From Runella sp. (GTDB taxonomy: Bacteria > Bacteroidota > Bacteroidia > Cytophagales > Spirosomataceae), in NCBI GenBank assembly GCA_023254175.1, contig JALQYJ010000021.1:1-45587 (forward strand): a stretch of 45,587 nt of DNA. The letters are read 5' to 3'. The notes beneath the pieces were generated by a model that did no database searches, was not told where the DNA came from, and worked only from the letters and a program-made list of their open reading frames with translations. Within the stretch, counting starts at the first letter, position 1. Every line of letters starts with the position of its first letter. This document shows positions 14,668-32,905 of this stretch, one piece after another. The translations under genes and the position numbers were made by a program.

Positions 14668-17600
14668 ATGATGAACAGTTTCCCTTCTGTAGGGCGAGTT
14701 TCTCTCGCTCGTCAGTTTGCTGTCCTTGGTAAAATCGCCATGACAGTTTTGTTCACAGTGGTCTTTTTAGGAGTGCAAGCTCAAGAAAGACAAGTCACTG
14801 GTAAAGTAAAAGATGCAACAGGCACAGGAATGCCAGGCGTAACCGTTGCAGTCAAAGGAACCCAACGTGGTACAAGTACGGATGTTGATGGTAACTACAA
14901 GGTATCAGTTCCTACCAATGCTACTCTAATTTTCAGCTATGTGGGCTACTCAAACCAAGAAATTGAGGTTGGTACTCGCTCAGTTGTTGACGTAACACTT
15001 CTCGAAGACAATAAAGTATTGAACGAGGTTGTTGTGGTGGGTTACGGCACAGTGAAGAAAAAAGACGCGACTGGTGCTGTCAATGCCATTGGGACAAAAG
15101 ACTTCCAAAAAGGAATTGTTGTATCTCCTGAGCAATTAATGCAAGGACGCGTAGCTGGGGTACAAATCACTCAATCAAGCGGTGAGCCTGGAGGTGGTAT
15201 CAACGTTCGTATCCGTGGTACATCCTCAGTATTCGGTGGTAACAACCCATTGTTCGTTATCGATGGAGTACCTTTGGCAGGTGACAACACTTCTTCGGGC
15301 GGAGACGCCTCAGGGGTAGGTCGTCAGCCAGCTAAAAACCCATTGAACTTTTTGAATCCAGAAGACATTGCTAGCATCGACATTTTGAAAGATGCCTCTG
15401 CAACGGCTATCTACGGTTCACGTGGTGCTAACGGGGTTGTGTTGATTACAACCAAAAAAGGCAAAGGCAAAGGTACACTTGAGTATGGTTACTCATTAGG
15501 CACTAGCAAAATCACGAAGCGTTACGATCTGCTTGATGCAGCTGAGTACCGTGCCGCAGGTGGCCAAGACCAAAAAGGTAACACTGACTGGCAAAATGAG
15601 TTGTTTAGAACTGGCTATACCAACCAACACAACTTTGCGTATGGCGCAGGTGATGCTAGTGGAAGCTACCGCTTTACACTCGGTTATTTAAATCAACAAG
15701 GTATTATCAAAGAGTCAGATATCAAGCGTTATAGCTTAGGCTTCAACGGTTCTAAGAAATTCCTCAAAGATCGTTTGACGATTGCTAGCAACATCAACAT
15801 TTCAAACAACCAAGACGCTAACGTACCTATTTCTGAAAACGTTGGTTTCGAAGGTGATCTCATGGGCAATATTTTGAAAGCTAATCCAACTCGCCCAGTT
15901 TACAACAGCGATGGTACTTTCAACCAACCAGGCAATACAGAGCCTAACCCATTGGCAATGATTGTATTATCTCAAGATAACACGAATACTCTTCGTGCTT
16001 TGGGTAACATCAATGCTGAGTTGCAAATTGTAAAGAACTTGAAATTCAAGACAGTTATCGGTTTTGATAAGTCTTTCTCTTCAAGAAAATCTGCCTATTC
16101 TCGTGACCTCGTGTTGACAGGTGTTCAAAACGTTGGGCGCGCATACATTGCTGATGTCGAAACAGACAATAAATTGTGGGAAAACTACTTCACTTACGAT
16201 AAAGAGTTCAACAAAATCTCATTGAACGCTTTGTTGGGTTATTCTTATCAGAAGTTTAGCCGCTATTCAAAGAATGTCGCTGCAGCAAACTTCCGTACCA
16301 ATGATTTGGACTTGATGATTTACAACATGGCATCAGCAAATGCTGGTAAGTTTGGTAGCAATGTTATCAACAATACAAGTTTTGAAACTGACGAGCTCCA
16401 ATCCTACTTCGGACGTGTAAACGTAGGTATCAATGATAAATATTTATTGACTGCTACATTACGTTCTGATGGTTCTACAAAGTTTGGAGGTAACAACAAA
16501 TACGGTTTCTTCCCATCATTCGCTGCTAAGTGGAAAATCATGAACGAAAGCTTTGCTCCTAAGAATATTTTCGACGACTTAGCAGTTCGTTTCGGTTATG
16601 GTTTAACAGGTAACCAATCCATTCCTCACAACGTCTATGACCGTCGTGATCGCTACAGTGGTTGGGGTATCAACCAAGGTGGAGATAACATCGAAGGGGG
16701 TGGTTTGAATGCTGTCGCATTTAACAACCCTAACTTGAAATGGGAAACTACTTCTTCAATCAACTTAGGCTTGGATTTTGCTATCTTGAAAAACCGTCTT
16801 TCAGGTACTATTGATTTCTATCAAAAGAATACTAGAGACTTATTGTTCTATGTTGTTTCTGCTCAACCTGCTCCAACGCCGTTTGCTTGGAAAAACTTGG
16901 ATACTGACATTGAAAACCGTGGGGTAGAAATTTCATTAACAGGTTCGGTTGTAGACAAGACTGATTTTGGTTGGGAAGTGTTGTTAAACACTGGTTTCAA
17001 CAAAAACTTAGTAAAGAACCTTAGTGGGGTATTCGATACAGGTGAAATCAACGGTCAAGGTTTGACAGGTGCATTTGCACAGCGTATTGCTGCTGGTCAG
17101 CCATTGTTTGCTTACTTCTTGCGTGATTTCGGCGGTTATGATGAAAATGGAAACTCACTTTATCCAAATGGTGACTTCCAACAATTCTTGAACGGCAAGA
17201 GCCCTCTTCCAACTGTAACGGGTGGTCTGACTAACAACTTCCGTTATAAGAACTGGGATTTGAGCTTGTTCTTCAACGGTGTATTTGGCAGCTACATTTA
17301 TTCAAATACTGACAACGCATTCTTTACAAAAGGCTCTTTTGCAAACGGTCGTAACGTAACGAAAAATGTGGTTTCTAGCAAAGAAGGACCATTGAACGCT
17401 CCTGACGTTTCAACTCGTTTCTTGCAAAAAGGTGACTTTGTTCGTTTACAAAACTTGAACTTGAGCTACCGTGTACCAGTAAGTGGTAAAACCATTTCAA
17501 ACTTACGCGTATTCTTGACAGGTCAAAACTTATTGACTTTCACTAAGTATGAAGGCCAAGATCCAGAAGTAAGCACTAACAAGTCAATCAACGGTATCCC

Positions 17601-17673
17601 ATCGTTTGGTATTGATTACACTGCTTACCCAAGAGCTAGAACTTGGACTATCGGTGCTAACATTTCGTTCTAA
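14668..17673 (+). CDS. SusC/RagA-family TonB-dependent outer-membrane transporter
   Basis: The 1001-residue protein has a signal peptide ending near VQAQ39. Residues 42-112 are a carboxypeptidase-regulatory-like domain (VTGKVKDATGTGMPGVTVAVKG), residues 118-270 the plug (NEVVVVGYGT, IRGTSS, NPLFVIDGVPL, ATAIYGSRGANGVVLITTKKG), and the rest a 22-strand-type barrel ending in ANISF. It would import a nutrient, usually a glycan or peptide, across the outer membrane with its SusD partner 23 bases downstream. Codon use (frequent GGT, CGT, AAC) differs from the downstream genes and suggests high expression. The substrate is unknown, although the cluster context suggests a glycan. Confidence 0.96.
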   Translation: MMNSFPSVGRVSLARQFAVLGKIAMTVLFTVVFLGVQAQERQVTGKVKDATGTGMPGVTVAVKGTQRGTSTDVDGNYKVSVPTNATLIFSYVGYSNQEIEVGTRSVVDVTLLEDNKVLNEVVVVGYGTVKKKDATGAVNAIGTKDFQKGIVVSPEQLMQGRVAGVQITQSSGEPGGGINVRIRGTSSVFGGNNPLFVIDGVPLAGDNTSSGGDASGVGRQPAKNPLNFLNPEDIASIDILKDASATAIYGSRGANGVVLITTKKGKGKGTLEYGYSLGTSKITKRYDLLDAAEYRAAGGQDQKGNTDWQNELFRTGYTNQHNFAYGAGDASGSYRFTLGYLNQQGIIKESDIKRYSLGFNGSKKFLKDRLTIASNINISNNQDANVPISENVGFEGDLMGNILKANPTRPVYNSDGTFNQPGNTEPNPLAMIVLSQDNTNTLRALGNINAELQIVKNLKFKTVIGFDKSFSSRKSAYSRDLVLTGVQNVGRAYIADVETDNKLWENYFTYDKEFNKISLNALLGYSYQKFSRYSKNVAAANFRTNDLDLMIYNMASANAGKFGSNVINNTSFETDELQSYFGRVNVGINDKYLLTATLRSDGSTKFGGNNKYGFFPSFAAKWKIMNESFAPKNIFDDLAVRFGYGLTGNQSIPHNVYDRRDRYSGWGINQGGDNIEGGGLNAVAFNNPNLKWETTSSINLGLDFAILKNRLSGTIDFYQKNTRDLLFYVVSAQPAPTPFAWKNLDTDIENRGVEISLTGSVVDKTDFGWEVLLNTGFNKNLVKNLSGVFDTGEINGQGLTGAFAQRIAAGQPLFAYFLRDFGGYDENGNSLYPNGDFQQFLNGKSPLPTVTGGLTNNFRYKNWDLSLFFNGVFGSYIYSNTDNAFFTKGSFANGRNVTKNVVSSKEGPLNAPDVSTRFLQKGDFVRLQNLNLSYRVPVSGKTISNLRVFLTGQNLLTFTKYEGQDPEVSTNKSINGIPSFGIDYTAYPRARTWTIGANISF

Positions 17674-17696: not shown

Positions 17697-19193
17697 ATGA
17701 AGACTAATAAATACATAGTAAGAACTTTGATGGCTGGGCTAGGCTTGGCTACCATTACTTCTTGTACTGACTTAGTAAACAACGAACAAGACTCTATCGT
17801 ACGGGAAGCCACTAGTGGTACTCCAGTAGCTGGAGACCCTGTTGGTCTACTTGAATCTGCTTACAAAGATTTAGGATTCTATACAGACCAAGCTAATGCC
17901 TACGCGATGGGTATGCATACTTCTGCCGAAATGATTCCTCCAACTCGTGGGGTTGACTGGGGTGATAACGGAGTATGGCGTACACTTGACCAACATACAT
18001 GGGACGCAACTCACCAACAAGTACGCGATACATGGAACAGCTTAAACTCACGTGTGTTCAAAACTACTGAAATTTTGGCTTCTACGACTGCAACGGCAGC
18101 TCAAAAAGCAGAAGCTAAATTCTTGCGTGCGTTTAACATGTACCACGTGATGGACTTCTACGGTCAAGTTCCTTTCAGAGAGTTTAATCAAGGAATTGAT
18201 GATCTTCCTCGCGTAATGACTCGTTCAGAAGCGTTTGACTTTATCGTAAAAGATTTGGAAGAGGCGCTTCCTGTATTGGCCAAAGTAGGTCCATCAGCAA
18301 CAAACGGTGTAGCTAACAAAGCTGCTGCTAACTTCTTACTTGCGAAGTTATATTTGAACAAGGCAGTTTATAAGTCATCAAACCCAGCTGGTCCATATAC
18401 ATTCGATAAAGCAGATATGGATAAAGTGGTATCGTACGTAAACGCTATCACTGCTGACGGCTACAAACTTGATACAGATTACTTCAATGCGTTCTCGAAA
18501 AATGCTAACTCGGAAACCATTTTTGTAAGTTTGGAAGGTACTCCTCAAAACCGTTGGTTCATGACGTTGCACTACAACCAAAACCCTTCTGGATGGAACG
18601 GTTTTACAACGTTGGCTGACTTCTACGATAAGTTCGAGAAAGACGATCCACGTATCGGTAAGCCTGCAAAAGGTGATGGTACTGAATTTTCTGGTATCGG
18701 ATACGGTTTCTTGATTGGAAAGCAAATCGATGATAAGGGTAAAGACCTCGTGGATACACGTACTCAAAAAGTACTTTCGTTCACCCGCGATGTACCTTTG
18801 GCAGGTGCTGCTACCGATAAAGGTATCCGCGCTATCAAGTACCACCCTGCAACCGCTGGTAAGTACATCTTGATGCGTTATGCAGAAGCGCTTATGATGA
18901 GAGCAGAAGCTCAACTTCGGGGCGGTGATGCTGCAGGTGCGTTAGTAACTGTCAACTCTATCAGAGCGGCACGTAAAGCAAAAGCTCTTGCTTCTATCAA
19001 CACTGACGGTATGTTCGACGAAATCGGTCGTGAATTGTACTGGGAAGGTGGAAAACGTACCGTTGAGGTTCGTTTTGGCAAATTCACTACGGGTGTTGGT
19101 GCTGACAACAAAGAAGCTTACACTGTATTATTCCCAATTCCTGCTATCGCGCTTGTTTCTAACCCGAATTTGAAACAAAATACAGGTTACTAA
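17697..19193 (+). CDS. SusD/RagB-family surface lipoprotein
   Basis: A 498-residue lipoprotein with the acylated Cys at residue 23 (ATITSC). The helix-rich TPR-like body typical of SusD is visible: FYGQVPFREFNQG, TRSEAFDFIVKDLEEALPVL, AANFLLAKLYLNKAVY, YILMRYAEALMMRAEAQLRGG and RRELYWEGGKRTVEVR-like end (EIGRELYWEGGKRTVEVRFG). It caps the SusC barrel and binds the substrate at the cell surface. It is probably co-transcribed with SusC and followed by a strong terminator. Confidence 0.96.
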   Translation: MKTNKYIVRTLMAGLGLATITSCTDLVNNEQDSIVREATSGTPVAGDPVGLLESAYKDLGFYTDQANAYAMGMHTSAEMIPPTRGVDWGDNGVWRTLDQHTWDATHQQVRDTWNSLNSRVFKTTEILASTTATAAQKAEAKFLRAFNMYHVMDFYGQVPFREFNQGIDDLPRVMTRSEAFDFIVKDLEEALPVLAKVGPSATNGVANKAAANFLLAKLYLNKAVYKSSNPAGPYTFDKADMDKVVSYVNAITADGYKLDTDYFNAFSKNANSETIFVSLEGTPQNRWFMTLHYNQNPSGWNGFTTLADFYDKFEKDDPRIGKPAKGDGTEFSGIGYGFLIGKQIDDKGKDLVDTRTQKVLSFTRDVPLAGAATDKGIRAIKYHPATAGKYILMRYAEALMMRAEAQLRGGDAAGALVTVNSIRAARKAKALASINTDGMFDEIGRELYWEGGKRTVEVRFGKFTTGVGADNKEAYTVLFPIPAIALVSNPNLKQNTGY

Positions 19194-19251: not shown

Positions 19252-19271
19252 TTTTAGTGACTTCCCCACCT

Positions 19272-19844
19272 ATGATAGTACGTCCATTACATTCTATTTT
19301 TATCCTAATTTTTATTGGAGGTTTTATACCCAGTTGTACTCCCTCCTCGAAAAACCCTTCAGAAATTCTTGCTAGCCTCAAAGATGGGGAAGCAAAAGCA
19401 TTTTTCACCATTGATAACCAAGAGTTTTATGGAGATAGTAGCCTCTTTAAAGGAGAAATCACAGCGTTTGACCACGCTTTTCGTATTAATCTTACTGACC
19501 AATTTCAAGGAAATACGATTATAGCCATTGGTGGTGACAAATGGTTTGCACAAAAACCCGTGACCAAACCTGTAGATACCAATAACCAAACGCAAGCCAG
19601 TGCTATGATTGGTCGTATGACTGACCCCGTCAATCGTCGTGGATTAGGGTATATTATGACTTCGGGGGAAATAACACTCGAAGCTTTGTCGGATGAGAAA
19701 GCTATTCTGCGCCTCAAAGGACAAGTAGGCGAATACACTACAATGGGAAACCCCACCACCTGGAAATCAGTAGAAGGGCTCATTATATATAAAAAACCCC
19801 GCCTTAAAATTCAAGGACTTACGACTCAAGAACTCTATTTTTAA
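19272..19844 (+). CDS. Small lipoprotein of unknown function
   Basis: From the ATG at 19272 the protein is 190 residues; a GTG at 19257 would add five residues before the signal. The signal peptide ends in a lipobox (FIPSC, Cys22). The mature part is a beta-rich domain with alternating polar and hydrophobic strands (AKAFFTIDNQEFYGDSSLF, GLGYIMTSGEITLEAL). I do not recognise a family. It lies between the SusD terminator and the first VCBS/ASPIC gene (18-base gap), so it probably belongs to the same surface system. Confidence 0.8.
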   Translation: MIVRPLHSIFILIFIGGFIPSCTPSSKNPSEILASLKDGEAKAFFTIDNQEFYGDSSLFKGEITAFDHAFRINLTDQFQGNTIIAIGGDKWFAQKPVTKPVDTNNQTQASAMIGRMTDPVNRRGLGYIMTSGEITLEALSDEKAILRLKGQVGEYTTMGNPTTWKSVEGLIIYKKPRLKIQGLTTQELYF

Positions 19845-19862: not shown

Positions 19863-22800
19863 ATGTTTTCATTAAACTGTCGTTTATATAGCTACCTTAT
19901 CGCACTTACTATCGTTTTTGCAGGTTGCCAAAACGATACCACTAAGGGGCTTTTTGAATCCGTAACCGATTCGGGTATTGACTTTGAAAATAAAGTTACC
20001 AACAGCGAAGACTTTAACATCTTCAATTATCGCAACTTTTACAATGGTGGTGGCGTAGGAATTGGCGACATCAACAATGATGGACTACCCGATGTATATA
20101 TGACATCAAACATGGGAGAAAATAAGTTGTACCTCAATAAAGGAAATTTTAAGTTTGAAGACATTACTGAAAAAGCAGGCGTTGCGGAAGCAGGGAAATG
20201 GAGCACAGGCGTGGTAATAGTGGATATTAACTACGATGGTTTGCTAGATATTTATGTCTGTAATGCAGGAATTGACAAACGCATCAAAAATCAAGGCAAT
20301 TCACTTTACATCAATAATGGCAACCTCACCTTCACAGAAAAAGCCAAAGAATATGGCCTCGATGAAGATGGGTATACTACTCACGCAGCCTTTTTTGACT
20401 ATGACCTCGACGGCGATTTGGACTGTTATATTTTGAACAACAGCTTTATCCCTGTCAATACCCTTAATTATGACAACAACCGTGACTTGCGCGCCAAAGA
20501 CTGGCCCGTCAAAGATTATTTGAAAGGTGGAGGGGATAAATTACTTAGAAACGACAACAACAAGTTTGTAGACGTAAGTGAACAAGCGGGGATTTATGGC
20601 AGCTTGATTGGGTTTGGGTTGGGCGTGACCGTTGGCGACCTCAACAACGACAATTACCCCGATATTTATATTTCAAATGACTTTTTTGAGAAAGATTATC
20701 TCTATATCAATCAACGTAACGGGACATTTAAAGAAGAAATACAACAACGGATTGGGCATACTAGCTTGGCCTCAATGGGAGCTGATTTTGCCGATATTAA
20801 CAATGATGGCTACTCGGATATTTTCACAACCGATATGCTCCCCATCGACGAAACGCGTCTCAAAAGTACGACCTCATTTGAAAGCCACTATATCTTCAAA
20901 CTCAAGCAGCAGAAAGGGTTTTACAATCAATTTATGCAAAATGCCCTGCAACTCAACAACCAAGACGGGACTTATAGCGAAATTGCGTGTTTGAGTGGTG
21001 TCGAAGCTAGTGACTGGAGCTGGGGAGCGTTGATGTTTGATGCTGATAACGACATGAAAACCGACATCTACGTCTGTAATGGCATTTATAACGACGTTAT
21101 CGACCAAGATTTTATTGACTTTTTTGCGGATGAAGTAGCTCAAACAATGGTTCTTTCAGGTGAAAAAAAGAGCTTTGATGCCATCATCAACCAAATGCCG
21201 TCACGTCCTATTGTCAATAACTTTTTCCATAACAAAGGCAACCTCAAATTTGAAGAAGCCAGCAAAGATTTTGGTTTTGGAACACCTTCCTTTTCTAACG
21301 GAGCCGCCTATGCTGATTTGGACAATGACGGTGATTTGGATTTAGTCGTTAACAACGTCAACCAAAAAGCATTTGTGTACCGTAACAAAACCAACGAAAA
21401 CAAAGATATTCATTACATTAAGTTTAAGCTGAAAGGCGAAGGCAAGAACCTCAATGCCATCGGAACACAATTAAAAGTGTATGTAAATGACCAAATTTTA
21501 AGTAAAAACATCATGCCTGCACGGGGCTTTCAGTCGAGTACCGAATACCCCGTAACACTAGGGTTAGGTTCAACAACCAAAATTGACTCCGTAACTATTA
21601 CATGGTACGATGGCCGAGTTACGAAACTTAATAACTTACCCATTGACCGAACGCACGAACTGAGCATTAGCAGTGGCAAAAAACTCCTCACCCCTACTCC
21701 TGCTGAGCGTTTATCACTGTATTTGGCAAAAACAGAAGCCCCTTTTGACACTCATAAGGAAAACGATTACGAAGATTTTTACCAAGAAAAAAACATCCCA
21801 GTCAAACTCTCTAAAGAAGGCCCCAGAGCAGCGGTAGGAGATGTAAACAACGACGGCGCCGATGACATCTACATCTGCGGAGCGGCCAATCAAGCGGGGC
21901 AGCTGTACCTTCAAGTCAATGGCTCGTTCCAAAAATCAGAACAAAAAATCTTTGAAGACTTTAAATATTTCGAAGACACCGAAGCTGTGTTTTTTGACGC
22001 AGACAAAGACGGTGACTTTGATTTGTACGTTGGGGCAGGTGGAAACGAACTCGACCCTAATCAGCGTGGCTTAAACGACCGCTTGTATGCCAACGACGGC
22101 AAAGGTAACTTCTCACTTGCTGCCAACGCTCTCCCCCCCAATGGCATGAATACTAGCGTTGTCGTTCCCATAGATTTTGATAAGGACGGTGATTGGGACC
22201 TATTTGTTGGTAGCCGAAGTTTACCCAAGACCTACGGACTTTCTCCCGTTAGCTATATTTTTGAAAACCTTGGAAACCTCAAATTCAAGGATAGTACCCC
22301 CAAAAGCTTCCAGACCTTGGGGCTCATTCGCGATGCCGCTTGGGAAGATATCAATGGGGATAACAATAAAGAATTGATTGTGGTTGGGGACTGGATGAAT
22401 CCAATGGCATTCACGTACCAAAACGGCGCTTTTATCGAAGTCAAAACAGGATTAGAAAACTATCAGGGTTTTTGGGGAAGAATCGAAGCCGTGGACATCG
22501 ACAATGATAAAGACTTGGATTTAGTGCTAGGCAACATCGGCGACAACTTCATGCTTCGTGCCTCAGAGAACAGGCCTGTCAAAATTTGGGTAAGCGACTT
22601 TGACAACAATGGATTAATCGATAAAATCCTAACAAAAACCGTTGATGGCGAAGATAGCCCTGTGCTACTGAAACGAGAAATGATGGAGCAATTCCCAATT
22701 TTGAAAAAAGAAAATTTGAAGCACTCTGCTTATGCCACTAAAAGGCTCAAGGACTTATTTACCTCCGACGTACTTTCAAAAGCAACCATCAAACAAGTAA

Positions 22801-23189
22801 ACTACATGCACTCTGCCGTAGCCATCAACGACGGGAAGGGTAACTTTAAACTATCAGTATTGCCTGTCGAAGCCCAAATTTCGTGCATCAATGCCACTTA
22901 CTGCGTTGATATAAACAACGACGGGTTGAAAGATATTTTACTCGGTGGCAACAACTATAACTTCATCCCTCAATTTTCACGCTTAGATGCCTTCAAGGGA
23001 AAAGTACTTCTCAACAAAGGCAAAGGCGTTTTTGTCGCTGTATCCGACCATCTCTCGGGCTTTGCACCACAAGGAGAAATGACTCAGTTAAAACCTGTTA
23101 AGATCAACGGCACACCCTACATGATAAGTTTATTAAACAATGCCCTACCCCAATTATTTAAAATAGGACAGCCCAAACCTACACTATGA
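19863..23189 (+). CDS. VCBS/FG-GAP repeat lipoprotein with ASPIC/UnbV domain (copy 1)
   Basis: An 1108-residue lipoprotein (lipobox VFAGC, Cys22) probably exposed at the cell surface. It holds many FG-GAP/VCBS units with calcium loops such as DINNDGLPD (69-77), DLDGDLD and DNDGDLD, expected to build one or two beta-propellers. Around residues 517-592 there is an ASPIC/UnbV domain (LNAIGTQLKVYV, ARGFQSSTEYPVTLGLG, IDSVTITWYDG). A second propeller region follows. Proteins of this kind are common beside SusC/SusD-type genes in Bacteroidetes and are thought to bind ligands; no enzyme activity is evident. The stop overlaps the next start (ATGA). Confidence 0.93.
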   Translation: MFSLNCRLYSYLIALTIVFAGCQNDTTKGLFESVTDSGIDFENKVTNSEDFNIFNYRNFYNGGGVGIGDINNDGLPDVYMTSNMGENKLYLNKGNFKFEDITEKAGVAEAGKWSTGVVIVDINYDGLLDIYVCNAGIDKRIKNQGNSLYINNGNLTFTEKAKEYGLDEDGYTTHAAFFDYDLDGDLDCYILNNSFIPVNTLNYDNNRDLRAKDWPVKDYLKGGGDKLLRNDNNKFVDVSEQAGIYGSLIGFGLGVTVGDLNNDNYPDIYISNDFFEKDYLYINQRNGTFKEEIQQRIGHTSLASMGADFADINNDGYSDIFTTDMLPIDETRLKSTTSFESHYIFKLKQQKGFYNQFMQNALQLNNQDGTYSEIACLSGVEASDWSWGALMFDADNDMKTDIYVCNGIYNDVIDQDFIDFFADEVAQTMVLSGEKKSFDAIINQMPSRPIVNNFFHNKGNLKFEEASKDFGFGTPSFSNGAAYADLDNDGDLDLVVNNVNQKAFVYRNKTNENKDIHYIKFKLKGEGKNLNAIGTQLKVYVNDQILSKNIMPARGFQSSTEYPVTLGLGSTTKIDSVTITWYDGRVTKLNNLPIDRTHELSISSGKKLLTPTPAERLSLYLAKTEAPFDTHKENDYEDFYQEKNIPVKLSKEGPRAAVGDVNNDGADDIYICGAANQAGQLYLQVNGSFQKSEQKIFEDFKYFEDTEAVFFDADKDGDFDLYVGAGGNELDPNQRGLNDRLYANDGKGNFSLAANALPPNGMNTSVVVPIDFDKDGDWDLFVGSRSLPKTYGLSPVSYIFENLGNLKFKDSTPKSFQTLGLIRDAAWEDINGDNNKELIVVGDWMNPMAFTYQNGAFIEVKTGLENYQGFWGRIEAVDIDNDKDLDLVLGNIGDNFMLRASENRPVKIWVSDFDNNGLIDKILTKTVDGEDSPVLLKREMMEQFPILKKENLKHSAYATKRLKDLFTSDVLSKATIKQVNYMHSAVAINDGKGNFKLSVLPVEAQISCINATYCVDINNDGLKDILLGGNNYNFIPQFSRLDAFKGKVLLNKGKGVFVAVSDHLSGFAPQGEMTQLKPVKINGTPYMISLLNNALPQLFKIGQPKPTL

Positions 23190-25951
23190 AAAAAAATGTG
23201 TGGAAAGGTATCGGGGTAGCTATCGCACTCATCGCGTGCTTAGCCTACCCTAACTTTGCGCAAAATGCAGGCAACTTAGTTCGTTTTTCGGTTCAAAACA
23301 CCGAACTACGCCTGGTAGGCTCATTGGCAGAAGTACGAATTCAGGTGTTTTCAAATAACATTTTTAAGGTAACGCAGTTCCCTTCCAACGGCGTTTTTCC
23401 AGATACGTCGTACGCAGTCGTTGGTCAACCGCTTTCAATACGCCAATTTCAACTGTTGGAAACCCCAACAATGCTGACGATTGTTACGCCTTCGAGCCAA
23501 TTAGAAATAACAAAATCACCAATTTCGGTTGCCTTAAAATCGAATGGTAAAACCAAAATCAAACAAGACGTTTTTGGGTATAAAAACCAAGGTGTCACGC
23601 TGTCTTTTGTCATCAATCCCAGCGAAATCTTTCACGGTACAGGTGGGAGGGTATCCAAAATCAGCCTGACGGGAAAAGTTGCGGAATTTACCAATACCTT
23701 TCGTTCGTTGTATTTTGATGACATTTACGGTCAAACCTACGGCTTGGCTCAAAGCATTACTATTCCGTTTTTTGTCGCTTCCGGGCAATATGGTCTCTTG
23801 CTCGACAGCTCGCTTCCGGGCGACATGCGTACCTACTTGGGGGCCTTAGACTCCACCCGAATCGACGCCCAAATCACTAGCGCAGGTCTTTGGTCGTATT
23901 TTTTCATCAACGGAACTAGCAACGACGAAATCTTATACGAATACACTGCCCTCACAGGACGTCAACCATTGGTTCCTCGCTGGGCACTTGGGTACCTACA
24001 ATCCAAAAATAGCTATAACACCGAGCGCGAGCTCAACGATGTAGTTAGCAATTTCCAGAGTCAAAACTTCCCGCTAGATGCTATTATCCTCAATACCCCT
24101 TGGCAGGGTAATTCCAACAATTTAGGCAATTTCAGTTGGAGTCGAACGGGTTTTTCTTCGCCTTCCAGCATGATAAAAAACTGGCTGGGCAAGGGCGTAA
24201 AAACCGTGGTGATGAACTCAGCCTACGTCAATAAAGCCTCCACCAATTACCGCAGTTTGGACTCGCTTCGTCTTTTGACCAAAACTCTCTCAGGAACTAC
24301 GGGCATTCTTACTCAAACGGGTGACACAACCAGTCTGCTAGATGTTTTTCGACCTAATTTCCCACAATGGTTAGCAAAGCAACTTAACCCTCGTACCGAA
24401 GAAGGGGTGAGTGGTTGGGCTAGTATTGGCATTGAACCACCTCAACATCCTTCGTTCTTTATCCATACCAATACCCCCTCCACCCAAGTACATAACCTTT
24501 ATTCATTACTTTGGGCCAAAACCATTTATGACAATCACCGCAAAAATTACCCTTCCGTTCGGCTTTTTCACTTGACTAGTTCGGCTTGGACGGGTGCACA
24601 GCGGTATGGTATTTTGCCTTGGACGGGCAACGTAGCTCGGTACTGGGTAGGGCTTTCGATTCAAATTCCTATCCTGATTCATGCGGGGTATTCGGGCTTG
24701 GGATACATGCACTCAGATATCGGCGGCTATGTAACACCCTCTGATAAAACTCCTAAAGACGAAGAAATGGACATGCGATGGACCCAATTCGGGGTTTTTT
24801 CCCCCATTATGCGGGTCAATGGCGAGCGGAATATTACCGAACCTTACATTCTGACGCAGCCTTTTTATACCAATACCCGCGCTGCGATTCGGCTTCGGTA
24901 CCAATTGCTTCCCTACATTTATAGCCTTGCCTACCAAAATACCACAACAGGTCGCCCTTTGTGCCTTTCAATGGATTATTTTGAGCCATCTAATCGCCTC
25001 GCAAGCATCGATGATCAGTTCTTTTTTGGGAAAAGTTTATTAGTTGCTCCCATTATGCTTCACGGAATGCTTGTACGAAAAATTCAACTTCCAAATGGAA
25101 AATGGTTTGATTTCTGGTCAAAAAAGTCCTACCAAGGTGGAGGAGCTATTTTTGAAAACGTAACGTTCGAAAAAATTCCTGTGTTTGTTCCTGCGGGAGC
25201 TTTTGTACCCATGGCCGTCAGCGCTAAGTCCTCAACCGATGCTTATCTTTCCGACAGCCTCGTAGTGAAATTTTACCAAGACGTATCCGTTCCAAATTCT
25301 GAATTTACTATTTTTCACGACAAAGGTACCGACGCCAACGTACTAGAGAACGACAGCTATGAGCTGCTGAGGCTGGCAGGAAAATCAAAAACAGATACCA
25401 TTAGTGTCACACTCACCCGGATGCGTACCTATGCCCAAGGGCTTGGGAATCGTTATATTTTATTAGAAGTAAAAAACGTTACAAACATCCCAAAAGCTGT
25501 GTTGCTCGATGGTCAAACTATCCCCATTAGCCTAGTAGCAGATGCACCGTTGAAAGTCAAAACCGCTTATTATGATTTGGCCAATTTACAACTATCCCTT
25601 CCTTTTGATTGGGATTGCAGTAAGTCGACGACGGTGCAGGTGCTTCGCACTGACCTGAACCTACTTACTAATACAATTCCTCAAGAACAAGAAGCGCTCA
25701 TCGTTTATCCGAACCCCGTGCACGAATCGGGGGTGGTAACGCTGCAAATTCATCCGCCTACCACCGATGCTTATACGGTCGAGGTGCTGGATATTTTGGG
25801 GGGCGTTGTTTACAAACAGGCTCTCGGTTCGTTGTCCCAACATCAAACAACCCACCATAGTTTCTCGGCCCCTTCGCAAAAGGGAGTTTTTACAGTTTTG
25901 CTAAAAAATACTCAAGGAGAAGCCACCACCCAAAAAATAATGATTCTATGA
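23186..25951 (+). CDS. GH31-fold secreted protein with T9SS tail, probably catalytically dead
   Basis: A 921-residue protein with signal peptide (MKKNVWKGIGVAIALIACLA...FAQ). Residues 30-230 are the N-terminal beta-sandwich of GH31, 250-600 the barrel (PRWALGYLQSK, FPLDAIILNTPW, SDIGGY at 510-515, FGVFSPIMR), then the C-terminal beta domains, and from about Tyr841 (YPNP) a type IX secretion sorting domain. The normal catalytic Asp residues are absent: the nucleophile motif WxDxxEP reads GWASIGIEP with Ile414, the acid/base motif WTGD reads WTGN (Asn482), the sugar-binding Asp of WLDxxW is Asn303 and the RxHG His is Asn545. It is probably a surface-secreted binding protein. It overlaps both neighbours by 4 bases. 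Confidence 0.9.
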   Translation: MKKNVWKGIGVAIALIACLAYPNFAQNAGNLVRFSVQNTELRLVGSLAEVRIQVFSNNIFKVTQFPSNGVFPDTSYAVVGQPLSIRQFQLLETPTMLTIVTPSSQLEITKSPISVALKSNGKTKIKQDVFGYKNQGVTLSFVINPSEIFHGTGGRVSKISLTGKVAEFTNTFRSLYFDDIYGQTYGLAQSITIPFFVASGQYGLLLDSSLPGDMRTYLGALDSTRIDAQITSAGLWSYFFINGTSNDEILYEYTALTGRQPLVPRWALGYLQSKNSYNTERELNDVVSNFQSQNFPLDAIILNTPWQGNSNNLGNFSWSRTGFSSPSSMIKNWLGKGVKTVVMNSAYVNKASTNYRSLDSLRLLTKTLSGTTGILTQTGDTTSLLDVFRPNFPQWLAKQLNPRTEEGVSGWASIGIEPPQHPSFFIHTNTPSTQVHNLYSLLWAKTIYDNHRKNYPSVRLFHLTSSAWTGAQRYGILPWTGNVARYWVGLSIQIPILIHAGYSGLGYMHSDIGGYVTPSDKTPKDEEMDMRWTQFGVFSPIMRVNGERNITEPYILTQPFYTNTRAAIRLRYQLLPYIYSLAYQNTTTGRPLCLSMDYFEPSNRLASIDDQFFFGKSLLVAPIMLHGMLVRKIQLPNGKWFDFWSKKSYQGGGAIFENVTFEKIPVFVPAGAFVPMAVSAKSSTDAYLSDSLVVKFYQDVSVPNSEFTIFHDKGTDANVLENDSYELLRLAGKSKTDTISVTLTRMRTYAQGLGNRYILLEVKNVTNIPKAVLLDGQTIPISLVADAPLKVKTAYYDLANLQLSLPFDWDCSKSTTVQVLRTDLNLLTNTIPQEQEALIVYPNPVHESGVVTLQIHPPTTDAYTVEVLDILGGVVYKQALGSLSQHQTTHHSFSAPSQKGVFTVLLKNTQGEATTQKIMIL

Positions 25952-27153
25952 TATGCCAACGGTTATTGATTGCGATGGGAGTCTTGTGCTGTATGGCTTA
26001 TCTCATCGGATGTGTGGATGATTTTGACGCCGACATCTACACCTCCAAAGAATACTTGCTCGTTGACGGAACCCTGACAGACCTGAACGAACCTCAGTAC
26101 GTTTCCCTCTTTAGTACCCCCAAAGATGCATCCTTTAAAAGTTCCGATTTTACCTCGACCATTTATCCTGCCCGACAATCTTATTTTCCCGAACGGCAAG
26201 CGATTGTGAAACTCATTGTCAATCAAAAGGAAGAAATTCAGCTGGAGGAGCGGCTTGCAGGTTATTATTACTGCCCCAACGGATTTCGAGCCAAGGTAGG
26301 AAATACGTACCAACTACGATTCCAACTCGCCAACGGCAGAGCCTACGAAACCGACGTGGAAACCATGTACTCTGTTCCTGCTATTAAAAACGTATCAGAA
26401 GAATTTAACCTTACAGGCATTCCAAACACGGCAGGGTCAAGTCCAACGGTTTCAAGTAATGACATTTATGTCGATTTTGACGACGTTCCATCCCAAAAAA
26501 ACTTCTACCGCTGGCGGTGGGTCAACTGGGAAATTCAGCGCATTTGTGCCACTTGTTTGCAAGGACGATACAATCTTTTTGAAACTGAGCAAGGAGAAAC
26601 CGGAGATTGTTTCAGGGATTTGACATTAAAGGCCAACGAACGCTTTGATTATTACTGTGGTACGCGCTGTTGGGATATTTTTTACAGTTCTGACATCAAT
26701 ATATTATCTGATGTGTATACCAATGGTAAATCTCAAAAAAACAGGCTTGCGGCCCAAATCCCCTTACGTCAGTCGAATCCCTGTTTGGTGAGCCTTCAAC
26801 AGATGTCCCTTTCCCCCAATACCTACCGCTACTTAAAATTACTTCAAGATCAATCCATCAATACAGGTACTCTTGCCGATACGCCACCTGCTCCTATTCG
26901 AGGTAATATCCGAAACATAAAAGACGCCAACGAATTGATATTGGGCTATTTTTCGGCTTCGGCTGTAAGTGAGGTTCGGCTGATGCTCGACCGTCGAAAT
27001 ACGCGTGGGGGTCTTCCAAACGGTCTGTTTAGCTTTATAAACAACCGACCTGTGGTCCTCGAAGATGCGTCCAATGAGCGTCCCGACATTCCATTGGCCA
27101 TTTGTCAACCAAGTTTTACTCGTACCCCTATTCCCCCCCTTGGCTGGCGATGA
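25948..27153 (+). CDS. DUF4249 outer-membrane lipoprotein
   Basis: A 401-residue lipoprotein (lipobox LIGC, Cys22, followed by acidic VDDFDAD, which resembles a surface-export signal of Bacteroidetes lipoproteins). The opening KEYLLVDGTLTDLNEPQYVSL, the middle YRWRWVNWEIQRICATC and the pattern of Cys residues agree with DUF4249, a family usually encoded beside a TonB-dependent receptor. It probably caps or assists the receptor encoded just downstream, whose ATG overlaps this stop (ATGA). Residues about 190-260 hold six Cys that may form disulfides. The ligand is unknown. Confidence 0.88.
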   Translation: MICQRLLIAMGVLCCMAYLIGCVDDFDADIYTSKEYLLVDGTLTDLNEPQYVSLFSTPKDASFKSSDFTSTIYPARQSYFPERQAIVKLIVNQKEEIQLEERLAGYYYCPNGFRAKVGNTYQLRFQLANGRAYETDVETMYSVPAIKNVSEEFNLTGIPNTAGSSPTVSSNDIYVDFDDVPSQKNFYRWRWVNWEIQRICATCLQGRYNLFETEQGETGDCFRDLTLKANERFDYYCGTRCWDIFYSSDINILSDVYTNGKSQKNRLAAQIPLRQSNPCLVSLQQMSLSPNTYRYLKLLQDQSINTGTLADTPPAPIRGNIRNIKDANELILGYFSASAVSEVRLMLDRRNTRGGLPNGLFSFINNRPVVLEDASNERPDIPLAICQPSFTRTPIPPLGWR

Positions 27154-29543
27154 ACAAGACATTTTACCTATTGTTGAGCTGGTTTTTAAGCCTTTCTACC
27201 GCTTTTGGGCAAATCTACACCATCAGTGGAATGGTATTAGACTCCATTAGCAAGCAACCACTTGTGGGAGCGACTATCATTCTCGACCACAACCGTAGCA
27301 AAGGAGCGACCAAAACCGACGAAAAAGGGGAGTTTACCCTGACCGTTGACCGCCAAAGCCACGTCGTAGCGGTGCGTTATGTGGGATATGTCCCCTATTC
27401 CAAGTTCTTTCCCACCATGACCCGCAGTATGAAAATAACTGTGCTACTGGATAAAACCGAAAATCAACTAGAAGAGGTTGTGATAACTACGAAGGGTTTT
27501 GACCAAACCATTCGGCAACCGATTTTGGGGGTGAATCAAATCAACATCAAAACCTTTCAAAAACTCCCATCGGCTTTTGGAGAGGTGGATTTATTGCGCG
27601 GCATTCAGATGCTTCCTGGTGTCACGAGCGTAGGCGAAGCCTCTAACGGGGTCAATATTCGAGGGGGAACCACCGACCAAAATTTGATTCTTTTGGACGA
27701 TACCCCCATTTTTAACCCTACGCACATGTTTGGGTTGTTTTCGGTATTTCCTCCAGATGCAGTTTCTACTTTGGACTTGTACAAAGGCAACGTACCAGGT
27801 CGGTACGGCGGGCGCGCGGCGGCAGTGCTCGACATCAAGCTCCGTAATCCTGCCTTAGACAGCCTTAAAATCAAGGGTGGAGTCAGTATTGTATCCAACC
27901 GACTCATGGTTAATGTTCCCGTTGTCAAAGATAAGCTTGGTTTTTACGTAGCAGCGCGCGGCGCATTTAATGATTTTTTGTTGCCCATTGCTTCCGATAA
28001 ATTAAAAGACATAAAAGCCAAATTCGGCGAAGGCGTTTGGAAGGGCTTTTGGAAAATTAACCCAAAAAACACCCTAACAGGTACATTTTACAAAAGTTAC
28101 GACCTTTTCAGTACCAATTTGCTCCCAGGGCTTCCCAACGTCATCGGCGAATTTACCCGCTATCAGCATACTTCTACCAATGCGACCGCCCGTTGGTTGA
28201 CGGTACTTTCCCCAAAAATGGACATCCAAACCACTGCCGTTTACGCCCATTATACTCCTCAAATTTCCACCCAAGAAAAAGGCACCGACAATTTTGTCGA
28301 TTTGAATTCAGCCCTGACTCAAAAACAACTTAAATCGAATCTAAGCTATGTATTAACCAAGTATAAGTTAGAGACAGGGCTAAGTTTTACACGTTATGAT
28401 ATTCAACCTGGCGAGCTAATCCCCAATAAAAGCACCAGCGTAAGCAACATAGTCACGCCTTCTGAACGCGCCAACGAATGGGCATGGCACGCCGACAACG
28501 AGTACAATCTCAACAAACAATTGGCGTTTTCGATAGGTCTTCGGTATTCCTATTTTCAGGCATTAGGACCCGCACTCTACCGAAATTACGAAGCAGGTCA
28601 ACCCCGCGATGACTTTTCTGTGATAGACTCCGTTCAAGTAGGCAGCAACAAAGCGTTTAGCCAATATGGGGGTTTTGAGCCTAGAGTCGGGGTTCGGTAT
28701 GCGTTGAACGAACGGACGTCGTTTAAATTTGGGTACAACCTCATGCGTCAATATTTGCAGATTGTTTCTAATACCACCACGCCCATTCCAACCTCTCGCT
28801 GGAAAACGAGCGACTTACACATCAAGCCCCAAATCAGCAATTTACTTTCAGCGGGCTACTACTACTCATTCGACAACGATATTTATGAGATTTCGGTAGA
28901 AGGCTACTATCGCTTCACTCGAAACATGGTGGATTATAAACCTGGTGCTGATTTTTTGCTCCAACCCTACCCCGAAACGCAAATTGTACAAGGTTTAAGT
29001 AAAGCTTACGGCCTTGAAGTGATGTTGACCAAGAAAAAAGGGCGACTCAACGGCTGGGTGAATTATACTTATTCTCGAACATTCAACCGTACCTACACCG
29101 ACCTGCCTTCGATAGAACAAGTCAATAACGGGTATTGGTACCGCGCCAACTACGACCGCCCCCACAGTATCAATACCTCATTTGACGTCAGCGTTGATAA
29201 ACACAATTCGTTCAGTTTTACGTTTATTTACAGCACAGGTCGCCCATATACACAGCCTGTGGGTTTTGTGAATTATCTCAACAATTTCTTTCCGTTCTAC
29301 GAAGAGCGTAACAACAAACGCGTCCCTGACTATCACCGTTTAGATTTTGCATGGAATATTTACAATCCAAGCATGAAAAACCGTCGTTTTAGAGGCAAAT
29401 GGGCATTTACGGTGTATAATTTGTATGCCCGTCGGAATGTTTATTCTGTCTTTTTCAGAACCGAGAAAAACATTAGCAAAGCAAAACGCTTGCAGATTTT
29501 TGGTGCTCCCATTGTCAGTTTAGCCTATAATTTTGAATTTTGA
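27150..29543 (+). CDS. TonB-dependent outer-membrane receptor (DUF4249 partner)
   Basis: From the ATG at 27150 the protein is 797 residues with a good signal peptide (MNKTFYLLLSWFLSLSTAFGQ). A start at 27102 is less likely because its extra residues read through the previous gene without a signal. A carboxypeptidase-regulatory-like domain (YTISGMVLDSISKQPLVGATI) is followed by the plug (LEEVVITTKGFD, GVNIRGGTTDQNLILLDDTPIFN, RYGGRAAAVLDI) and a barrel ending in SLAYNFEF. It is shorter than SusC proteins and forms a second import system in the cluster, with the DUF4249 lipoprotein. The stop TGA overlaps the next ATG by one base. Confidence 0.93.
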   Translation: MNKTFYLLLSWFLSLSTAFGQIYTISGMVLDSISKQPLVGATIILDHNRSKGATKTDEKGEFTLTVDRQSHVVAVRYVGYVPYSKFFPTMTRSMKITVLLDKTENQLEEVVITTKGFDQTIRQPILGVNQINIKTFQKLPSAFGEVDLLRGIQMLPGVTSVGEASNGVNIRGGTTDQNLILLDDTPIFNPTHMFGLFSVFPPDAVSTLDLYKGNVPGRYGGRAAAVLDIKLRNPALDSLKIKGGVSIVSNRLMVNVPVVKDKLGFYVAARGAFNDFLLPIASDKLKDIKAKFGEGVWKGFWKINPKNTLTGTFYKSYDLFSTNLLPGLPNVIGEFTRYQHTSTNATARWLTVLSPKMDIQTTAVYAHYTPQISTQEKGTDNFVDLNSALTQKQLKSNLSYVLTKYKLETGLSFTRYDIQPGELIPNKSTSVSNIVTPSERANEWAWHADNEYNLNKQLAFSIGLRYSYFQALGPALYRNYEAGQPRDDFSVIDSVQVGSNKAFSQYGGFEPRVGVRYALNERTSFKFGYNLMRQYLQIVSNTTTPIPTSRWKTSDLHIKPQISNLLSAGYYYSFDNDIYEISVEGYYRFTRNMVDYKPGADFLLQPYPETQIVQGLSKAYGLEVMLTKKKGRLNGWVNYTYSRTFNRTYTDLPSIEQVNNGYWYRANYDRPHSINTSFDVSVDKHNSFSFTFIYSTGRPYTQPVGFVNYLNNFFPFYEERNNKRVPDYHRLDFAWNIYNPSMKNRRFRGKWAFTVYNLYARRNVYSVFFRTEKNISKAKRLQIFGAPIVSLAYNFEF

Positions 29544-32500
29544 TGATGTCTAATTCAACTCTTTTATATCGTTTTTTTACCCTTTCTGTCGTTGTCTGCA
29601 CGGCCTGTGTTTTTATAGGCTGCCAATCATCAAACGAGCCAAAACTTCCTGCCCAATTCCGATTATTAGAGGCTTCCGAAACGGGAATTGATTTTGCCAA
29701 TACCCTCAAAGCCGATAGCAAGCTCAACATTTTCAACTACATGTACTTCTACAACGGAAGTGGCGTAGGGGCGGGAGATTTCAACAACGACGGGCTTACT
29801 GATTTGTGCTTTACTGGAAACCTTTCGGAAAACAAACTGTACCTCAACCGAGGCAAAATGAAGTTTGAAGACGTCAGCGCTCAAACCAACATCAATCAAA
29901 ACAAAGCATGGGCCAACGGGGTGTCGGTGGTAGATATCAACCAAGACGGAAAACTGGACATTTACATCAGCCAAGTAGGTGGAATCCCGAGTTTGGACGG
30001 GCGCAATTTGTTGTTTGTTTGTAAGGAAATTACGGCAAAAGGAATCCCTGTTTACGAAGAAAAGGCCAAAGAATACGGTCTCGACTTGAAAGGATTAGGC
30101 ACGCAAGCCGCCTTTTTTGACTACGATTTAGACGGCGATTTGGACTTTTTCCAGCTCAATCACTCCGTTCACCAAAACGGTACTTTTGGGTTTCGTTCGG
30201 CGTTCCAAGGTACCCCTCACCCCACGGCAGGCGATAAGTTTTTCCGCAACGACAACGGCAAATTTATCGACGTTACCCAACAAGTACACATCATCGACGA
30301 CGTGCTGGGCTACGGCTTGGGCGTAGGTATTGGCGACGTCAACCTCGACGGTTATCCCGATATGTACATTGGGAACGATTTTCACGAAAACGACTACCTC
30401 TACCTCAATCAGCGCAATGGTTCCTTTACCGAATCCTCTGAGCGTCAGATTATGCACACGAGTCAGTTTTCGATGGGAATCGACATAGGCGACTTAAACA
30501 ACGACCTCCTCCCTGAGATTATCTCGCTCGATATGCTTCCCAACGACAAAGAAATTTTGAAGCGTTCGGAAGGCGAAGATTCCTACAACATTTTTAAGTA
30601 CAAAATCCGTCAAGGGTATAGCTATCAGTTTGCCCGCAATAACCTCCAACTCAACCGAAACGGCGTTTTTTCGGAAATGGGAATGTACGCAGGCGTACAC
30701 GCCACCGACTGGTCGTGGTCGCCACTGATGATGGATTTTGACAACGACGGGAAGAAAGACATTTTTATTTCTAACGGTATTCCCAAACGAATGAACGACA
30801 TCGACTACATTCAGTTTGTGTCGGATGAGGCCATTCAGCAAAAAATGAACAAGGGCGAATTTAACGAAGATGACCCCGACGTAGTGGACATTTTACCCGA
30901 AATCAAACTTCCTAATAAGTTTTACCACAACACCCAAAATCTTCAATTTACTGACTGGCAAAACGCCATTGAAAACGACAAACCTTCTTTCTCAAACGGT
31001 GCCATTTATGCCGACTTGGACAACGACGGCGACCTCGACGTGATTGCCAACAATATAAACGACAAGGCGTTTATTTACGAAAACCTTTCGACAGCCAACG
31101 AGTCAATTACCCTACAAGTCGAAGGAAACACGGGTAACCGCAACGCAATTGGAGCCAAGTGTTTGGTATTCCGACAAGGAGAAGTGATTAGCTACGAGAA
31201 GTTTCCCGTGCGTGGCTTTCAGTCAAGCGCTGAGATTCCGCTGGTGGTAGGCGTGGGCAAAATAGCGGAAGTGGATTCGCTGCTTCTCGTTTGGCCCAAC
31301 CAAACCTACCAAGTGTTGCATAAGAGCGAGTTGAAAAAACAGCTTAAACTCGTTCAAAGCGAAAAGTTGCCCCGTTTTGATTACCAACGTTTGCAAAAAC
31401 TAGTAACGTCTAAGGTTACGTTTGAGGACAAAACGACAGCATGGGCACTGGATTTTATCCACCAAGAAAACAATTTTAACGAACTTGACCGCGAAGCACT
31501 CATTCCACATTTGGCCTCGTCGGCAGGGCCTGCGGTAGCGGTAGCCGATATTAACCACGACGGGCTTGAAGACATTTTCCTGGGAAATGCCCGCGATGCC
31601 CTCAGCAAAGTGTATCTCCAAAACGCCAACGGTAAGTTTCAAAACTTGCCCCAACCTGCCCTCGAAAAAGACCTAATCTACGAAGATGTGGACGCTCAAT
31701 GGACCGATGTCGACAGCGACAAACACCTTGATTTGGTAGTAGCAAGCGGTGGAAATGAGTTTTTTGGTAGAACCTACCAACTCCAACCAAGGGTGTACTT
31801 GAACAATGGACGCGGCCAACTGACGCGCAAAGAGGATGCCTTCAAAGACCTCTACGTAACGGCTTCGTGCGTGCGGGCGTTCGATTTTACGGGCGACGGA
31901 GCGGTGGATTTGTTCATCGGTGGGCGTTCTATTCCCAAAGCCTATGGCGATAATCCAACTTCGTATTTGCTCGTCAACGATGGCAAAGGAAACTTTACGG
32001 ACAAAACAACGCAACTCGCCCCCGAACTGCGCACCATCGGAATGGTGACCAATGCCGAATTGGTGGATTTGAACAAAGACCAACGTCTTGATTTGCTGTT
32101 GTCTATCGAATGGAAATCCCTAACGGTTTTTCACCAAAATAACGGGCGGTTTGAAAAAGCAATAACCATTGGAAGCAATCAGAAAGGATGGTGGAATTTT
32201 ACGTTGACGTACGATTTTGATCAAGACGGTGATGTGGATATTTTGGCGGGAAACTTGGGGCTAAATAGTCGCATCAAAGCCTCTAAGAAAGAACCCGTTC
32301 GGCTGTACGTAGGTGATATTGACAAAAACGACCGCGTTGACCAGATTTTAACCTATTACCTCAACGGCGAAGAAACCTTGTTTGCCAATAAAATGGAAAC
32401 CGAAAAACAGTTTCCTTACATCAAAAAAGAATACATCCACGCCCGTGATTTTGCCAAAACATCGGTAGAAAATCTATTTGGAAAAGACAAGCTCGGTAAA

Positions 32501-32905
32501 ATGGCCGTATTAGAAGCCAATGAATTTGCCAATGGCGTGTTTGTCAACGACGGTAAAGGAAATTTTCAGTTTCAGCCTTTGCCGTATTTGGCGCAGTTGA
32601 GTCCTTACAAAACAGCAGCTATTATCGACGCCAACGGCGATAACCTGCCCGATGTGTTTTTAGGAGGCAATTTTTATGACAACAACATCCAAATGGGGCG
32701 GTACGATGCCGATTTTGGCACAATTTTGCTCAATAAAGGCAAAAATCAGTTTGAAATTCAGCTTTCCAAAATACCTGTTTACGGGCAAGTTCGGCACATC
32801 AAACCATTTAAAAATTCCGCTGGAAAAATCCAATGGTTGTTAGCTAAAAACAACGACAGGCCACAAATTTTATCGATTATTCCCCCAACTTCCCGAAAAT
32901 TTTAG
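29543..32905 (+). CDS. VCBS/FG-GAP repeat lipoprotein with ASPIC/UnbV domain (copy 2)
   Basis: About 1120 residues; start chosen at the ATG that overlaps the receptor stop (TGATG). The signal ends in FIGC (Cys27). Layout as in copy 1: FG-GAP calcium loops (DFNNDGLTD, DLDGDLD, DNDGDLD), ASPIC/UnbV domain near residues 521-597 (RNAIGAKCLVF, VRGFQSSAEIPLVVGVG, VDSLLLVWPN), then a second propeller region. Sequence is clearly paralogous but well diverged, so the duplication is not recent. It ends inside a terminator-like hairpin: the stop codon lies in the loop. Confidence 0.92.
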   Translation: MMSNSTLLYRFFTLSVVVCTACVFIGCQSSNEPKLPAQFRLLEASETGIDFANTLKADSKLNIFNYMYFYNGSGVGAGDFNNDGLTDLCFTGNLSENKLYLNRGKMKFEDVSAQTNINQNKAWANGVSVVDINQDGKLDIYISQVGGIPSLDGRNLLFVCKEITAKGIPVYEEKAKEYGLDLKGLGTQAAFFDYDLDGDLDFFQLNHSVHQNGTFGFRSAFQGTPHPTAGDKFFRNDNGKFIDVTQQVHIIDDVLGYGLGVGIGDVNLDGYPDMYIGNDFHENDYLYLNQRNGSFTESSERQIMHTSQFSMGIDIGDLNNDLLPEIISLDMLPNDKEILKRSEGEDSYNIFKYKIRQGYSYQFARNNLQLNRNGVFSEMGMYAGVHATDWSWSPLMMDFDNDGKKDIFISNGIPKRMNDIDYIQFVSDEAIQQKMNKGEFNEDDPDVVDILPEIKLPNKFYHNTQNLQFTDWQNAIENDKPSFSNGAIYADLDNDGDLDVIANNINDKAFIYENLSTANESITLQVEGNTGNRNAIGAKCLVFRQGEVISYEKFPVRGFQSSAEIPLVVGVGKIAEVDSLLLVWPNQTYQVLHKSELKKQLKLVQSEKLPRFDYQRLQKLVTSKVTFEDKTTAWALDFIHQENNFNELDREALIPHLASSAGPAVAVADINHDGLEDIFLGNARDALSKVYLQNANGKFQNLPQPALEKDLIYEDVDAQWTDVDSDKHLDLVVASGGNEFFGRTYQLQPRVYLNNGRGQLTRKEDAFKDLYVTASCVRAFDFTGDGAVDLFIGGRSIPKAYGDNPTSYLLVNDGKGNFTDKTTQLAPELRTIGMVTNAELVDLNKDQRLDLLLSIEWKSLTVFHQNNGRFEKAITIGSNQKGWWNFTLTYDFDQDGDVDILAGNLGLNSRIKASKKEPVRLYVGDIDKNDRVDQILTYYLNGEETLFANKMETEKQFPYIKKEYIHARDFAKTSVENLFGKDKLGKMAVLEANEFANGVFVNDGKGNFQFQPLPYLAQLSPYKTAAIIDANGDNLPDVFLGGNFYDNNIQMGRYDADFGTILLNKGKNQFEIQLSKIPVYGQVRHIKPFKNSAGKIQWLLAKNNDRPQILSIIPPTSRKF

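Follow-up and report, generated by a model that had tools for sequence, protein, structure and literature searches.

Why does an uptake operon keep a glycosidase fold after the residues that carry out catalysis have been lost? The question is raised by a plus-strand gene at positions 23186-25951 of a 45,587-nucleotide contig of Runella sp. (GenBank JALQYJ010000021.1, assembly GCA_023254175.1, positions 1 to 45,587; this whole stretch is referred to as the window). Its product has the fold of glycoside hydrolase family 31 (GH31) and a sorting tail of the type IX secretion system (T9SS), and a preliminary description made from the window alone had proposed a secreted glycan-binding pseudoenzyme lacking the whole canonical active site, or a GH31 branch with a new mechanism. 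We find that the loss of classical catalysis is well supported by sequence comparison, and that the protein is, on balance, most likely a GH31 pseudoenzyme that captures ligand, without catalysis, for an uptake system of the outer membrane; glycan binding is plausible. Whereas the preliminary description considered the protein alone, the stronger signal proved to be the repeated loss of catalytic residues across its operon family.

The open reading frame and its Pfam domain set delimit a GH31-fold protein with the following parts. N-termini, both for the signal peptide and for the lipoproteins listed further below, were read by eye and not with a program.

23186-25951, + strand: GH31-fold T9SS protein, 921 amino acids (aa); open reading frame, Pfam, NCBIfam, phmmer
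N-terminus of this protein, + strand: signal peptide, read by eye
aa 50-209 of this protein: mutarotase-like domain (GH31 N-terminal)
aa 261-581 of this protein: degenerate TIM barrel
aa 591-672 of this protein: GH31 C-terminal domain
aa 840-920 of this protein: type IX sorting tail

Pfam recognized the TIM barrel (PF01055, E = 5.8e-67) together with PF21365 (E = 4.3e-17) and PF13802 (E = 2.1e-11), that is, a barrel with N- and C-terminal companion domains as in other members of the GH31 sequence family. The sorting tail scored above the cut-offs of both Pfam PF18962 (27.5 bits, cut-off 27) and NCBIfam TIGR04183 (29.7 bits, cut-off 23). This type A sorting domain, together with the presence in the genome of sprA, the sole T9SS component gene searched for, points to a type IX substrate. 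By sequence, the best solved relative is CjAgd31B (phmmer, E = 4e-119, aligned over aa 41-810).

Seven codons bear on the active site. In the list, the four-genome clade consists of the window and three other Runella genomes.

24092-24094, + strand: codon of N303; Asp in 60/60 intact relatives
24323-24325, + strand: codon of D380; acidic residue newly gained and conserved in the four-genome clade, Gly in 11/11 intact orthologues
24419-24421, + strand: codon of A412; elsewhere Trp, two residues ahead of the nucleophile
24425-24427, + strand: codon of I414; nucleophile position, occupied by Ile or Val in clade members
24578-24580, + strand: codon of S465; elsewhere a conserved Arg (RS motif)
24629-24631, + strand: codon of N482; acid/base position
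24818-24820, + strand: codon of N545; elsewhere the conserved His of RxHG

In the phmmer alignment with CjAgd31B, the Asp of WWGDLGEP falls on I414, the Asp of WTGDV on N482, the Asp of LDLYW on N303 and the His of RPHG on N545, the first two Asp being the catalytic residues of that enzyme. MAFFT alignments of 44 and 73 rows likewise place N303, I414, S465, N482 and N545 of the window protein opposite D, D, R, D and H of the intact rows. When the window protein was aligned pairwise (BLOSUM62) with 60 intact relatives, the acid/base position fell on N482 in 59 cases and on a gap in one, and the nucleophile position fell on I414 in 36, on Ser413 in 23 and on a gap in one. Some doubt therefore remains between Ser413 and Ile414; neither alignment gives a carboxylate there, and the window protein has no Asp or Glu at aa 407-416 or 475-490. 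Both Asp of an active retaining GH31 enzyme, the nucleophile and the acid/base, are thus missing from all four clade members, which carry Ile414 or Val at the one position and Asn482 at the other.

The remaining sugar contacts tell a similar story. In BoGH31, six residues hold the sugar (Asp441, Asp553, Arg613, Asp630, Asp659 and His709): the trapped sugar touches Asp553 (the nucleophile), Arg613, Asp630 and His709, and Asp441 and Asp659 directly or through water (PMC4967831). Characterised GH31 enzymes share two catalytic Asp (PMC9061262). Mapped on the window protein by motif and spacing, five of the BoGH31 six are replaced and Asp659, equivalent to D511, is kept; the spacings in BoGH31 and the window protein compare as 112 vs 111, 17 vs 17 and 29 vs 29, with 50 vs 34 for the loop ahead of the His. 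The corresponding position of a further contact in the enzyme CtGII was located with a nucleophile numbering that we assumed for CtGII. The conserved Trp replaced by A412 was equated with CtGII Trp554 (PMC9061262). In sum, both catalytic Asp and four of the five other contacts (N303, A412, S465 and N545) are replaced. The five substitutions first reported are all confirmed, but the statement that the whole canonical site is lacking holds only for the catalytic pair and most contacts, since the Asp of the DIGG motif (D511), itself a GH31 sugar contact, is retained.

A search for homologues found three other Runella genomes, whose orthologues are ~80% identical to the window protein, share its changes and read Ile (one) or Val (two) at 414. 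The frames are open in all four genomes. Silent codon differences separate the genomes at D380, A412, S465 and N482 with the amino acid unchanged, and the Asn codons at 303 and 545 are identical. Nei-Gojobori (NG86) ratios of nonsynonymous to synonymous substitution (dN/dS) within the clade are 0.076-0.113 (six pairs), similar to those of four intact orthologue pairs (0.114, 0.081, 0.077 and 0.050, two with dS near 2 or above) and of two pairs from a Glu-nucleophile clade described below (0.101 and 0.093); several distant pairs whose dS was too high to estimate were dropped. Because the changes are common to four genomes and the dN/dS values are of this order, they reflect neither sequencing error nor free decay, and the protein, being constrained, probably does something. 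An artefact of sequencing or misalignment is extremely improbable: 23 of the 60 pairwise alignments do put Ser413 and not I414 under the nucleophile, but either placement lacks a carboxylate and three further genomes repeat the pattern. The proposal of a pseudoenzyme is likewise upheld by the absence of a replacing carboxylate in the alignments, the recurrence of the pattern in four genomes and purifying selection.

The loss is not confined to this clade. Among 222 Spirosomataceae genomes (E 1e-60), we identified 24 orthologues of 41-100% identity, the window included, and two distant GH31 proteins. At the seven sugar-contact columns 303, 412, 414, 465, 482, 511 and 545, 11 of the 24 members read DWDRDDH and 13 are altered in at least one column; a catalytic Asp is changed in 12. 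The four Runella sequences read NAISNDN (two) or NAVSNDN (two). Six members from one other genus (L043, L044, L046, L047, L050 and L052) read DWERDDA, with a Glu nucleophile, Ala for the RxHG His and the acid/base Asp kept; by these residues, they are possibly an active variant with altered chemistry. Three singletons read NVDRTDN (L040), DYDRHSD (L056) and DWDRDDS (L053). The family therefore grades from 11 intact members through 9 partly altered ones to 4, forming one clade, without both catalytic Asp.

Outside this family, all 49 fetched homologues read DWDRDDH. These were taken from fetched DNA only (L037, L038, L057-L074 and 29 more), "intact" meaning here Agd31B-type relatives and a few others best matched by the window protein, with 14 other GH31 paralogues of the genus excluded. 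The 14 distinct paralogues belong to other subfamilies, and their alignment around the acid/base position is poor; their nucleophile column is Asp in 14/14, and their five-column readings are EDRNN (6), EDRYN (6) and DDRDG (2). The column counts exclude L057, L058 and L038, and the GH31 tree used for parsimony excludes these three and L069; all four were retained in a second GH31 tree. Whether computed on the GH31 tree or on one built from the adjacent DUF4249 and transporter proteins, parsimony requires four separate changes, both for any change at the five first-named columns and for a changed catalytic Asp. The trees, quick searches with support from the Shimodaira-Hasegawa-like approximate likelihood-ratio test only, agree in their main groupings; L056, on a long branch, is placed differently by the GH31 and neighbour trees; both parsimony trees give four changes. 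Given these four changes and the intact outside homologues, the family ancestor was most likely intact. The 11 intact members, too, differ from the outside rows at columns 415 and 416, by the nucleophile, and at 529, so an unusual substrate may have marked the family since its origin.

In related proteins at this place in the cluster, the catalytic residues have changed several separate times, a hint that the cluster keeps the protein for a purpose other than cutting. We tentatively propose, at a little under an even chance, that in Spirosomataceae an active ancestral GH31 fold became, on four or more occasions, a non-catalytic or rebuilt part of the DUF4249/TonB uptake complex, which would need the protein and not classical catalysis.

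A rebuilt site raises the alternative that the window protein is still an enzyme, reshaped for another substrate or chemistry through residues such as D380, E417 or D511. Six positions between 255 and 599 (280, 285, 380, 406, 525 and 547) are acidic in all four clade sequences and in fewer than 9 of the 11 intact orthologues; of the six, 380 and 406 alone lack an acidic residue in every intact orthologue. Among these gains Asp380 stands out, being new and fixed in the four sequences, and the Glu-nucleophile clade, which keeps its acid/base Asp, could be active with altered specificity. Compensating carboxylates at 380 or 406 were considered and formed no obvious catalytic pair. With both carboxylates of the retaining mechanism gone, no acidic residue at 407-416 or 475-490, no candidate carboxylate pair found, and E417 and D511 being ordinary conserved GH31 residues (invariant in a seven-row alignment), continued enzymatic activity is unlikely.

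In the four-genome clade, the GH31 stem branch exceeds that of the intact sister pair by a factor of 3.56; the corresponding ratio is 0.81-1.67 for six neighbouring operon genes and 2.54 for a small 195-aa protein (ratios computed on a topology that we fixed). The barrel has 63 columns with at least 95% conservation across 46 outside rows; among them, the clade altered 6 of the 7 sugar contacts and 8 of the other 56 (Fisher 0.00027). This value, like those for L040 (0.021) and L056 (0.049), serves only as a guide, since the choice of the seven columns was not blind and neither columns nor genomes are independent. Five of the eight other changed columns (415, 416, 419, 467 and 529) also deviate in at least one intact member. 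The long stem and the repeated losses might instead reflect a gene decaying after its enzyme was no longer needed, the protein drifting toward loss; dN/dS is above that of most neighbours, and of the 13 genomes of the genus that were searched, a number that counts the window's own, 7 lack an orthologue. Decay is nevertheless very improbable, as the frames are open in four genomes, dN/dS resembles that of intact relatives, and the window gene retains its sorting tail and gene overlaps.

The gene lies in a cluster made up as follows.

14668-17673, + strand: SusC-like TonB-dependent transporter, head of the cluster (Pfam)
17697-19193, + strand: SusD-like protein (Pfam)
19257-19844, + strand: 195-aa protein, evolving fast; unmatched in Pfam and NCBIfam
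19863-23189, + strand: ASPIC/VCBS (FG-GAP) protein 1, lipoprotein by eye; ATGA overlap with the GH31 start
25948-27153, + strand: DUF4249 protein, lipoprotein by eye; ATGA overlap with the GH31 gene, adjoining GH31 in 24/24 loci
27150-29543, + strand: TonB-dependent outer-membrane transporter, present in 24/24 loci; listed with a TTG start at 27102
29540-32905, + strand: ASPIC/VCBS protein 2, overlapping the transporter stop; TTG at 29540, ATG at 29543
33018-36551, + strand: ASPIC/VCBS protein 3, separated from protein 2 by 112 bases; may be where the operon ends

The coupling noted in the preliminary description rests on genuine ATGA overlaps, at 23186 with the ASPIC/VCBS gene and at 25948 with the DUF4249 gene; a third at 27150, where the transporter ATG overlaps the DUF4249 stop, brings the coupled genes to four. 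Transporter and second VCBS gene overlap at 29540-29543. The DUF4249 domain (PF14054, E = 3.3e-35) and the transporter Plug domain (E = 2.7e-09) were identified by Pfam, so that the window holds a DUF4249/TonB-dependent transporter module, and the order GH31-DUF4249-transporter is kept in the window and in 23/23 fetched loci (24/24). The SusC/SusD pair upstream (14668 and 17697) gives the gene the polysaccharide utilization locus-type encoding of a surface glycan-binding protein. Pfam matched no hydrolase family besides the GH31 gene from the SusC-like gene to the third VCBS gene of the window. One related locus, L092, has a SusC/SusD pair and an intact GH31 gene, with an extra GH97 gene (L092:3061-5166) located after the small-protein gene and ahead of the first VCBS gene; the GH97 gene fits alpha-linked sugars.

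Several further features of these loci were observed. Three ASPIC/VCBS (FG-GAP) proteins and two TonB-dependent transporters share the window cluster. No second VCBS gene was seen in L081, whose stretch ends at the contig end. The 195-aa protein (19257-19844) evolves fast, like GH31, and is found 3' of the SusD-like gene in 9/9 other loci with that gene. Beside the L056 form of GH31 (L094:11559-18932) are a ThuA-like gene and three 7TMR-DISM sensors, two with HisKA_3 and two with HATPase. Downstream in the window, a GH106-like (alpha-L-rhamnosidase) gene at 39745-42282 is preceded by MFS transporter, DUF4846 and peptidase genes.

In the arrangement that we favor, the window protein would have as its ancestor an active alpha-glycosidase or transglycosidase of the Agd31B kind and be exported by the type IX route to the cell surface. 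There, it would sit next to two pairs, DUF4249/TonB transporter and SusC/SusD, probably in a complex with them, and may hold for the transporters a ligand that is probably a chain of alpha-linked sugars. DUF4249/TonB transporter pairs have been proposed to work together (PMC11003636), and the only paper found on the DUF4249 family terms it uncharacterized. The same gene order would also suit a pure scaffold, in which the GH31 fold would keep the outer-membrane complex assembled, or act as a gate for the transporter, with no sugar bound. Such a role would account for the loss of most sugar contacts, the invariable position beside DUF4249 and transporter genes (24/24) and the persisting constraint; D511, however, is kept, three of the replacements are Asn, which could still bond to sugars, and the contacts with its neighbours that such a role needs would be hypothetical. 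We regard the scaffold as a less probable account, though the most serious of the alternatives.

Several results weigh against the capture model or the inferences beneath it. Because most contacts of the -1 site that grip the sugar are lost, canonical sugar binding is doubtful, and any binding would not be in the ordinary GH31 mode. Most operon neighbours in the clade have lower dN/dS (DUF4249 0.028-0.065, transporter 0.033-0.048, first VCBS 0.038-0.057); the GH31 gene is looser than most of them, yet constrained like other GH31 members. Among the altered ultra-conserved columns, 13/19 are identical in the four sequences versus 697/921 overall, so that the old pocket is now not conserved above average. 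Change is not concentrated at the contacts in the Glu-nucleophile clade (Fisher 0.31) or in L053 (0.52), and five of the columns in this test had been named as changed in the preliminary description. No match to the window SusC/SusD was found in the fetched stretches of L083-L091 and L093-L097 (one genus and L094). Finally, AlphaFold2 models of the window protein and the R. zeae orthologue, built from seven-row alignments of the window and related loci only, reached a mean predicted local distance difference test score of just 53.8 and 57.5, with the barrel mostly below 50.

If the GH31 fold was indeed converted repeatedly, a single operon position displays every stage from intact enzyme to pseudoenzyme. 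The intact, partly altered and fully altered members form a natural series in which one can ask what makes such an operon retain the fold once catalysis has gone, and what DUF4249 transporters carry.

The window protein shares its GH31 core with CjAgd31B, an oligosaccharide 4-alpha-D-glucosyltransferase (PDB 4b9y, 5npc), which has both catalytic Asp and the His where the window protein has Ile, Asn and Asn. Nearer still are the orthologues of Runella zeae (L035/L007) and Runella sp. MFBS21 (L036/L008), which occupy the same operon at 51% identity; unlike the window protein, they have all seven sugar contacts intact and are expected to be active. In Bacteroides thetaiotaomicron, SusC/SusD, a surface glycoside hydrolase and a surface glycan-binding protein form the levan and dextran utilisomes (PMC7618045). 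There, as in the window, SusC/SusD are encoded with a surface glycoside hydrolase, but the utilisome hydrolase is active and a separate glycan-binding protein is part of the complex, whereas the window fold is predicted to be non-catalytic and its complex is putative; by this analogy, the pseudo-GH31 could fill the binding role. GH31 proteins of insects are not known to have a bacterial operon, sorting tail or link to a TonB transporter. Insect members that lack the catalytic residues and are predicted to be inactive have been described among dipteran lysosomal-type alpha-glucosidases and in NET37 clade IV; one NET37 protein with a Glu nucleophile resembles the Glu-nucleophile clade of Spirosomataceae (PMC8063059), so the kind is already known. 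In the open-access literature searched, we found no operon-linked, recurrent bacterial GH31 pseudoenzyme.

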